A DNA stretch of 22,533 bases from a virus: IMG/VR virus record IMGVR_UViG_3300044971_003398, positions 1-22,533 of that record. One strand, 5' to 3'. Positions 2,273 through 20,920 of this stretch are shown piece after piece. The notes below the pieces were generated by a model, which did not search any database, was not told where the DNA came from, and saw only the letters and a list, made by a program, of their open reading frames with translations. The first letter of the stretch is position 1. Every line of letters begins with the position of its first letter. The translations under genes and the position numbers were made by a program.

Positions 2273-3217
2273 TTAACCTTCTTGAAAAACGCTGATAAAC
2301 ACTGCTCCTTTCTTTGTGAGAGGAAGAATTTTATCGCGCAAATCAACATTATGACAGCGAACGCAGCCGTGGGTGGGGACTAGTGGTTGGTCTGGTGCCC
2401 ACGCGCCTGGCCAGCCATTGGCAGATCCACCGCCATGTGTCATAATTCCAGCCCTCCCATTGTTTCTTTCTTGCCCCTCCAAGTCAATCATGTCGAAGCT
2501 ATACCAGCCATAGGCCATGAGAGTACGATCAAAAGCGGGCTTATCGCCTACTTTTTCATAGTCCTTGTAAATGGTTCCGATTTTATAAAGACCAGGCGGC
2601 GTGTCTGAATTGGTGATTTTCCATTCAAAATCACTATATTGTCCACGAGCAAGGCAAGGAATTTCCCACAAAAGCTTTCCTTCATAGGAGAAAGCCTTCA
2701 TGGTTTCCATTGCATCGTTCACAACTAAGTGCGAATCGCTAGGCTTAAAGCCAAAATCATGGGGACGTTTCTTGGGGCCAATCATGGTAAATTGCGTAGA
2801 TTCTGGAGCGTATTCCTTCATAAGCTTTGAAAGCTTTGCAGGATAATCAGGATCGGTGGCATAGCTTTGCTCTTTTAGCATACGCGCCGCTGCGTAGCGA
2901 TTGGGCGCATTATTGACGCCCTTAAATTGACGATAGTCTTTATACCAGCGAGTGATTAAATATTCGATGCAAGCGGAAAGACTTGGGAAGTCAAGAAAGC
3001 CTGCCTTAATCGTCACCCATTGACCATCGTACCACTCTTGAGTGGTAGTCCTAGTGCCATCACCTTTGAGCCCTAAGTAGTTATGAGTGCCAGATGTGTG
3101 TTGTCCAAAGCCACTTTCTAAGCAGCATTGAGCTGCTACTAGCTCAGGAAAACGTGCGCCATGCCTGCGGGCGATAGTGTAGCAAGTGTCCCAGAATGCC
3201 TTGTTGGAAGCCGTCAT
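2273..3217 (-). CDS. Endolysin: glucosaminidase + L,D-transpeptidase-like domain
   Basis: A 314-aa two-domain peptidoglycan-active protein. Residues about 5-137 form a FlgJ-like endo-beta-N-acetylglucosaminidase domain: the AAQCCLESGFGQH segment carries the expected catalytic Glu34, followed by NYLGLKGDG and a Tyr-rich helical end. Residues about 165-312 look like an L,D-transpeptidase catalytic fold (YkuD): PPGLYKIG, then H261 in MTHGGGSA and THGCVRCHN with the nucleophile-type Cys285 and Arg287. Family knowledge says such a Cys enzyme cross-links or exchanges peptide stems; in a lysin it might cleave them or only bind. No signal peptide is present, so export must depend on a holin. It is the last gene of a leftward lysis cassette, 4 nt after the holin-like gene, with AAGGA before ATG. 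Assignment of domain 1 is firm, of domain 2 good. Confidence 0.87.
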   Translation of the reverse strand: MTASNKAFWDTCYTIARRHGARFPELVAAQCCLESGFGQHTSGTHNYLGLKGDGTRTTTQEWYDGQWVTIKAGFLDFPSLSACIEYLITRWYKDYRQFKGVNNAPNRYAAARMLKEQSYATDPDYPAKLSKLMKEYAPESTQFTMIGPKKRPHDFGFKPSDSHLVVNDAMETMKAFSYEGKLLWEIPCLARGQYSDFEWKITNSDTPPGLYKIGTIYKDYEKVGDKPAFDRTLMAYGWYSFDMIDLEGQERNNGRAGIMTHGGGSANGWPGAWAPDQPLVPTHGCVRCHNVDLRDKILPLTKKGAVFISVFQEG

Positions 3218-3221
3218 GGCT

Positions 3222-3365
3222 TCAGTCCTTCACGCGGAAGACTGCCTTAAGGGCAGTCATAATCAATTGCAGAATGTTATTTTCTTTATAAGGAGTACGC
3301 TCGATAATTTGATCGGCAGCAGCAACAAGAATGCCACCAACTACGAACCATTCGACACCGCTCAT
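3222..3365 (-). CDS. Putative holin, 47 aa
   Basis: ATG 3363-3365 to TGA 3222-3224, preceded by a good SD (GGAGAAAGCT). The peptide begins SGVEWFVVGGILVAAADQII, one hydrophobic N-terminal segment of roughly 17 residues, followed by an amphipathic basic end (NNILQLIMTALKAVFRVKD). One TM segment, small size, a charged C-terminus and a position 4 nt before the endolysin fit a small class II/III-type holin or another lysis membrane protein. I do not recognise a named family with certainty. Antiholin activity is the main alternative. Confidence 0.65.
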   Translation of the reverse strand: MSGVEWFVVGGILVAAADQIIERTPYKENNILQLIMTALKAVFRVKD

Positions 3366-3394: not shown

Positions 3395-3604
3395 CTAGCG
3401 TTCAATCTCAAGACTGCGCACCCTTGTTTCAATGTCACTCATCTTATCTGTTAAAGCACTAAGCTTTTCCGTAATACTTTCAATTTGCACTGCAACTTTA
3501 GCCTGCTGATTGCCGACAGTAATAAGCATAGCTCCCGTAGAAAGAAGCATGCCAGCCGTGATAGTGGCCACAAAATTGGCCATGCCTTCTTTAAATGGTT
3601 CCAT
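3395..3604 (-). CDS. TM + coiled-coil lysis-cassette protein, 69 aa
   Basis: First gene of the leftward lysis cassette. After a short charged N-terminus a hydrophobic stretch (NFVATITAGMLLSTGAMLIT, about 10-29) is followed by a heptad-like helix to the end (ESITEKLSALTDKMSDIETR). This single anchor with a long coiled coil resembles inner-membrane spanins or haemolysin XhlA-like partners of holins, but no lipobox or second spanin subunit is visible next to it. The leader GGGAATCTCC precedes ATG 3604. It is separated by 29 nt from the holin-like gene and diverges from the HNH gene at 3634. The role as holin partner or spanin-like protein is inference. Confidence 0.65.
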   Translation of the reverse strand: MEPFKEGMANFVATITAGMLLSTGAMLITVGNQQAKVAVQIESITEKLSALTDKMSDIETRVRSLEIER

Positions 3605-20515: not shown

Positions 20516-20563
20516 CGTTGTCCGCGAGGGCGATGGGCCTCTCTAGTTCTTTTCACCATTTTG

Positions 20564-20920
20564 ATGCTTTCACGATTTCTTCTTTCTCTGTTCCTTTTGG
20601 CTCCTACCATCCCTGCCCATGCCGCGTCAAGGCAATGCGGCGAAGCCTCGCACTATGGTATGGGAGATGGCTACCACGGGCAACGCACTGCCAGTGGCGT
20701 CAGGTTTGATGCCTACGGTTCCATTGCTGCTCATCCATGGCTTCCATTTGGTACACGCCTTCTCGTGACAAACCGTGACAATGGAAGGCAGACAGTGGTG
20801 ACGGTCAATGATCGCGGCCCATACTACGGCGGACGCATTCTTGACTTGTCCTACGGCAGTTTTTCAAGACTTGCTTCGCCTGGGCAAGGAACTGCCCGCA
20901 TTTGCTTCTCTCGCTTGTGA
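20564..20920 (+). CDS. Secreted RlpA-like double-psi beta-barrel protein
   Basis: 118 aa from ATG 20564 (a TTG one codon earlier is possible). The N-terminal about 20 residues are a signal peptide (LSRFLLSLFLLAPTIPAHA, cut after AHA). The mature part is a compact RlpA domain: GEASHYGMGDGYHGQRTASG, then SIAAHPWLPFGTRLLVTNRD, VTVNDRGPYYGGRILDLS. RlpA proteins are septal lytic transglycosylases acting on glycan strands stripped of peptides; the NDRGP block holds the usual catalytic Asp. No SPOR domain is present. In a phage it might aid lysis or entry, or act on the host wall during infection. Its stop is joined TGATG to the next gene. Confidence 0.85.
   Translation: MLSRFLLSLFLLAPTIPAHAASRQCGEASHYGMGDGYHGQRTASGVRFDAYGSIAAHPWLPFGTRLLVTNRDNGRQTVVTVNDRGPYYGGRILDLSYGSFSRLASPGQGTARICFSRL

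Follow-up and report, generated by a model that had tools for sequence, protein, structure and literature searches.

We propose that a gene on the minus strand of a 22.5-kb virus record (IMGVR_UViG_3300044971_003398; 22,533 nucleotides, hereafter the window) encodes a two-enzyme cyanophage lysin, in which an N-terminal GH73 domain would cut the glycan and a C-terminal domain of the YkuD fold would hydrolyze the L,D bond (mDAP-D-Ala) of peptide stems and cross-links. We give this reading a probability of about 0.6. We consider it very probable that the protein is a lysin and that its YkuD domain is competent for catalysis. The features on which the argument rests are as follows.

2273..3217, minus strand: bicatalytic lysin gene, GH73 glucosaminidase plus YkuD (L,D-transpeptidase fold); 314-aa open reading frame, supported by Pfam, PHROGs and the match to S-CBS4 gp063
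2810..3178, minus strand: GH73 (PF01832) glucosaminidase domain, residues 14-136; Pfam and fold matches
3118-3116, minus strand: codon of the catalytic Glu34 of the GH73 domain
2276..2785, minus strand: YkuD-fold module (residues 145-314), which in relatives stands alone or is fused to other glycosidases
2336..2731, minus strand: PF03734 (YkuD) match, residues 163-294; Pfam
2348..2374, minus strand: active-site motif THGCVRCHN, residues 282-290, with the nucleophile Cys285; conserved among 70 relatives
2435..2437, minus strand: His261, partner of Cys285; invariant in 70 relatives
3222..3365, minus strand: 47-aa single-TM protein directly upstream of the lysin, holin candidate
3395..3604, minus strand: 69-aa protein combining a TM segment with a coiled coil; its gene opens the cassette, and it is a spanin/holin-like candidate

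An earlier note, made from the sequence alone, had described this gene as an endolysin joining a glucosaminidase to a YkuD-like domain. The span it gave, 2273-3217, is exact, and its residue numbers (E34 in CCLESGFG, H261 and T282-H283-G284-C285) are correct; we add the strand, as the frame runs from 3217 to 2273 and the plus strand across this interval is full of stops. A Pfam search with the 314-residue lysin matched PF01832 (Glucosaminidase) at residues 14-136 (E = 6e-17; 62.9 bits, cutoff 30.2) and PF03734 (YkuD) at residues 163-294 (E = 5.8e-6; 27.4 bits, curated cutoff 23.4), so that both domain calls agree with Pfam as well as with the Foldseek results below. The PHROGs matches were to the endolysin families phrog_3513 (7.6e-58, residues 1-306) and phrog_10051; together with the upstream TM genes and the single GH73 match in the related phage S-CBS4, they support the endolysin identity that the note had claimed.

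The window is related to Synechococcus phage S-CBS4, whose gp063 (YP_005098362.1) is 87% identical to the lysin across all 314 residues; judged by this end-to-end match, the sequence family is already known. The two genes share both domains and their neighbors, thyX, dcd, an exonuclease and HNH. The two-domain architecture is not a product of chance, since it is kept in S-CBS4 as well as in the majority of the viral contigs recovered along with the lysin. The annotation of gp063 reads endolysin, lysozyme or N-acetylmuramidase and leaves the C-terminal YkuD domain unmentioned; the last label is probably wrong, because GH73 is a glucosaminidase family. In the 69,420-base S-CBS4 record the only GH73 match is the fused gene itself, and searches for GH24 and SLT gave no match. 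By these three families, the fused gene is the only endolysin candidate in that phage. The corresponding contig search with PF00182 (GH19) matched nowhere, its control included, and is not usable as evidence.

The stop codon of the 47-aa gene lies 4 bases ahead of the lysin ATG. Genes for homologues of its product immediately precede YkuD or GH73-YkuD genes in L204, in L252-L254 and in S-CBS4 (gp064); homologues of the 69-aa protein occur in L204 and L252-L254, and S-CBS4 has gp065 in the corresponding position. The lysin N-terminus has no hydrophobic stretch and no signal peptide of its own, and the two small TM proteins are candidate holins. A terminator scan of the window returned a chance-level count, and a promoter scan found 7 candidates where 2.7 were expected, none of them strong at the start of the cassette. 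Elsewhere in the window (20561-20920, plus strand) lies a gene for an RlpA-like double-psi beta-barrel protein (PF03330, 9.5e-20), whose N-terminus is hydrophobic and signal-like. The cyanomyovirus S-CRM01, considered below, also encodes an RlpA-like lipoprotein close to its lysin.

In the proposed mechanism, the protein would serve an S-CBS4-like siphovirus as its endolysin; the host, assigned by relatives, would be Synechococcus or Cyanobium. Made without a signal peptide, the protein would probably gain access to the wall through the small membrane proteins whose genes lie just upstream. The GH73 center (Glu34) would cut the glycan, and the YkuD cysteine center (His261/Cys285) would attack the L,D bond that follows meso-diaminopimelate in the stem peptide, with the acyl-enzyme usually taken up by water and not by an amino group. 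Acting as an L,D-carboxypeptidase/endopeptidase, the YkuD domain would open cross-links at the same time as GH73 opens the glycan.

An AlphaFold2 model of the full-length lysin, built from a 70-sequence alignment, shows both domains (pLDDT 84, pTM 0.59), and the YkuD domain modeled alone reached a pLDDT of 91.6 and a pTM of 0.87. Foldseek matched the N-terminal half to FlgJ, Auto and AtlA. For the C-terminal half, the significant matches were exclusively YkuD-fold proteins, and so were all of the top 21 PDB matches. AlphaFold and Foldseek thereby recover the YkuD fold for residues 165-314, the region on which the earlier note had staked its reading. This fold search was needed because the module profile, searched against the PDB by sequence, gave spurious weak matches only. 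The best solved relatives of the YkuD domain are Bd1075 (5.7e-6) and Pgp2 (7.3e-6), followed by B. subtilis YkuD (8.3e-5) and then mycobacterial enzymes; these fold matches are modest, with a TM-score of about 0.58 and 20% identity. In the full-length model the C-terminus of the lysin coincides with the end of the YkuD fold, without a C-terminal NTF2-like domain.

Among 70 aligned, diverse relatives, H261, G284, C285, R287 and N290 are invariant and T282 is nearly so. The catalytic His and Cys of the YkuD family, in the context HG-x(n)-[S/T]xGC, are thus present in every one of these sequences. Residue 283, immediately before G284, is variable, with H, L, M, Y, W and others in the relatives. 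Selection is purifying on both halves of the protein (dN/dS of about 0.08 in the YkuD half and 0.07 in the GH73 half).

That the YkuD domain is active and that it is hydrolytic are our inferences, as is the bond proposed for it. We aligned the phage domain with 12 canonical YkuD proteins of Synechococcus and Cyanobium genomes and compared it in the model. Its L1 loop exceeds that of the secreted host proteins by about 8-9 residues, and its L2 lid falls short of theirs by at least 5. A long L1 and a short L2, leaving the site uncovered, are marks of hydrolytic YkuD enzymes, and a short L1 with an L2 lid over the site is the L,D-transpeptidase arrangement (PMC10653827); the latter is not seen in the phage domain. 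The host proteins (for example L278 and L279) share with it the His...Cys motif and the fold family, and differ by a hydrophobic, signal-like N-terminus, a short L1 and a long L2 lid. The length of the L3 loop was also considered as a hydrolase mark and was dropped, since one class of host YkuD proteins has a long L3 as well.

Bd1075 of Bdellovibrio and Pgp2 of Campylobacter, which are L,D-carboxypeptidases (PMC8938487, PMC10653827), offer the closest solved folds and the same His/Cys center, although rank in a fold search is not the same as activity. Both differ from the lysin in being shape enzymes of their own cells, at about 20% identity and with no Arg at Cys+2. Of the traits that mark Csd6, Pgp2 and Bd1075, the phage domain shows the closest fold, the long L1 and the uncovered site; it lacks the C-terminal NTF2-like domain and has Arg in place of Ala/Val at Cys+2. 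That position is Arg in most L,D-transpeptidases and Ala in Csd6, Pgp2 and YafK-like hydrolases (PMC8938487), and the invariant R287 thus agrees with the transpeptidases. The C. difficile enzyme LdtCd2 has L,D-endopeptidase activity in vitro (PMC12729407). The modeled loop lengths and the closest solved structures lean towards hydrolysis, and the lysin context favors it too. Our estimate for the hydrolytic reading reflects the fold relatives, the L1 and L2 loops, this context and the LdtCd2 precedent, set against the Arg at Cys+2. A further point against it is that an enzyme with L,D-carboxypeptidase activity alone, working on free tetrapeptides, would leave the cross-links intact.

The main competitor is a true transpeptidase, which would swap the terminal D-Ala for a D-amino acid or make 3-3 links, disrupting the wall or creating stems that the glycosidase prefers. 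Besides R287, it can draw on the antibacterial T6SS effector Tlde1a, which links L,D-carboxypeptidase with D-amino-acid exchange activity (PMC9638812), and on Salmonella Typhi, where an L,D-transpeptidase cooperates with a wall hydrolase (PMC12729407). Compared by description and not by sequence, Tlde1a resembles the lysin as a YkuD-fold enzyme turned on another cell's wall, and differs in being an injected effector, neither a lysin nor a glycosidase fusion. A domain that only added cross-links would, however, oppose the lysin fused to it, and the L1 loop is longer and the L2 lid shorter than in the host YkuD proteins; we regard transpeptidation as unlikely, if worth keeping in mind. Of the three roles that the earlier note had put forward, cleavage of peptide stems is the best supported. 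Host 3-3 cross-links might be reversed, given that host-like Synechococcus genomes carry canonical secreted L,D-transpeptidases. Such links are not required, however, because a hydrolase acting on L,D bonds could open cross-links of the ordinary 4-3 kind too.

The third role, substrate binding alone, fares poorly. The C-terminal placement of the YkuD domain resembles that of a cell-wall binding domain, and the variation at residue 283 also speaks for one that has lost catalysis, yet His261, Cys285, Arg287 and Asn290 are constant in all 70 sequences, and the module is also found as a separate gene. Because the catalytic set is invariant and selection on this half is as strict as on the GH73 half, a passive binding role is improbable. 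Still less probable is a DpaA-like amidase that would free proteins or polymers from meso-diaminopimelate and so loosen the outer membrane, leaving cross-links closed. Such lifting of outer-membrane anchorage would aid the lysis of a Gram-negative host, and DpaA (8ikr, 4e-3) is among the fold matches, but far more weakly than Bd1075 or Pgp2, and Cys+2 is Arg instead of Ala. It is also very improbable that the protein serves another stage altogether, as a virion-associated or wall-remodeling protein. The gene does adjoin DNA-metabolism genes (thyX, dcd, exonuclease) and lies outside the tail operon; small membrane proteins are nevertheless encoded directly upstream in phages carrying it, S-CBS4 has no GH73, GH24 or SLT elsewhere, and the annotated L,D-transpeptidase of cyanophage Mic1 is expressed late, peaking alongside the lytic genes (PMC11237433).

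The YkuD domain recurs with other partners. It is 73% identical in B23 and 61% identical in S-CRM01, two unrelated cyanomyoviruses, which differ from the window lysin in pairing it with GH19 and with a frameshift-split GH24, respectively, instead of GH73. In B23 gp319 the YkuD domain comes first and GH19 follows, and in S-CRM01 gp113/gp112 GH24 precedes YkuD, with a frameshift inside GH24. We scanned viral contigs and counted partners by distinct YkuD sequences, more than 100 in all, with Pfam checks. GH73-YkuD fusions account for 87 of these, YkuD-GH19 fusions for 4 and GH24-YkuD fusions for 2. Separate YkuD genes stand beside a same-strand GH24 in 9 cases, S-CRM01 included, at 3-162 bp from the GH24 match; another overlaps a GH19 gene, one lies about 460 bp from GH19 on the opposite strand, and 2 lie beside a gene weakly resembling Phage_lysozyme2. 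Contig ends cut 6 YkuD sequences. Pairing with a glycosidase is not universal: for 13 distinct YkuD sequences, the flank that was fetched contained no match to any of the glycosidases tested. A missing partner gene is weak evidence there, as the contigs are mostly fragments.

In L252-L254, the two small membrane genes are followed by YkuD as a gene of its own, at the place taken by GH73-YkuD in the window. A module tree requires GH24 to have been paired 3 separate times and GH73 at least 2 times, although it is a quick tree with several long branches. These comparisons mark the YkuD domain as a mobile lysis module of cyanophages. One of the options in the earlier note had the YkuD domain acting before glycan cutting, an order that finds no support, as the domain lies C-terminal to GH73 and GH24 yet N-terminal to GH19. 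Comparison of L006:4755-5696 with the window lysin suggests recombination at the interdomain linker, because the GH73 halves are near-identical (dN 0.003, dS 0.33) and the YkuD halves are far more diverged (dS 1.34).

For S-CRM01 (L084:3700-3900), the frameshift falls in an A-rich run (AAAAGAAAAAG), and the second frame encodes the rest of GH24 plus YkuD. We considered gp112 as a true separate gene and rejected this, since its frame reads upstream into the missing GH24 end (WNYVPSALMLYRNPGS); by sequence, gp113/gp112 is a frameshifted fusion, and the shift is either a sequencing error or a programmed one.

Other cyanophage and prophage proteins combine related parts. PSS2 gp098 (L085:3992-5218) is a cyanophage two-enzyme lysin of GH73 and a C39/C70 papain-like peptidase, which gives GH73 a second partner other than YkuD. 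Prophage-type proteins in L163, L165, L168, L176 and similar loci join YkuD to an N-terminal domain of about 55 residues (MTPERFxxRFxxF), which also begins the GH24 endolysin of S-CRM01; Pfam gives no match for this N-terminal domain, which may bind the wall. A Phage_lysozyme2-like gene follows in L166, L168, L171, L173, L176 and L178. The podovirus-like contig of the L262 record (G010:C1:25224-25556) carries a stand-alone YkuD gene and also a GH73 domain set within an open frame of 980 aa, whose product is probably a wall hydrolase carried by the virion.

Copies of the module in Cyanobium and Synechococcus genomes show about 55-63% identity. Of these, the copy in WH 5701 was checked and is prophage-borne, because portal, major head and scaffold genes lie nearby. 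Six such cyanobacterial genomes, with 3-6 YkuD matches each in total, encode additional YkuD proteins, and the canonical host proteins are distant from the phage module, with signal-like N-termini where read. A recent capture from a host L,D-transpeptidase was rejected on these grounds, and the module resembles a viral lineage of long standing.

In the part of the PhaLP account used here (PMC8310338), YkuD is listed as a rare peptidase-type phage lytic domain with 10 cases, as against the more than 100 distinct sequences found here. The same part reports 40 cyanophage endolysins with two catalytic domains (EAD-EAD), which it explains by a thick, highly cross-linked wall, and contains no account of the cyanophage YkuD module, its partner swapping or its activity. 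A survey of gut phages includes one protein with GH25, choline-binding and YkuD domains (PMC13284279). Our literature search, with most subscription journals outside it, returned catalogue mentions only of cyanophage L,D-transpeptidase or YkuD endolysins, and no description of partner swapping of the YkuD module in cyanophages or of its biochemistry. The recurrent module thus seems undescribed. What is known is the sequence family and the bicatalytic kind of endolysin; what would be unusual is the predicted second activity. The literature searched contained no biochemical description of an L,D-endopeptidase class of endolysin.

Known endolysin activities are mostly glycosidase, amidase or peptidase. 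As a tentative wider proposal, rather short of even odds, cyanophages may have converted a YkuD-fold enzyme into a dedicated lysis L,D-endopeptidase, shuffled among GH73, GH24 and GH19 and standing alone at the endolysin position in L252-L254. If true, this would add a new bond class for lysins, through an L,D-acting module repeatedly paired with unrelated glycosidases, and a fold known mainly for wall building and editing would become a lytic tool. The fused and split versions would form a natural set for asking what makes a YkuD enzyme hydrolyze or transfer. Cyanophages may need to open the wall in two steps, as the walls of their hosts are reported to be thick and heavily cross-linked (PMC8310338).
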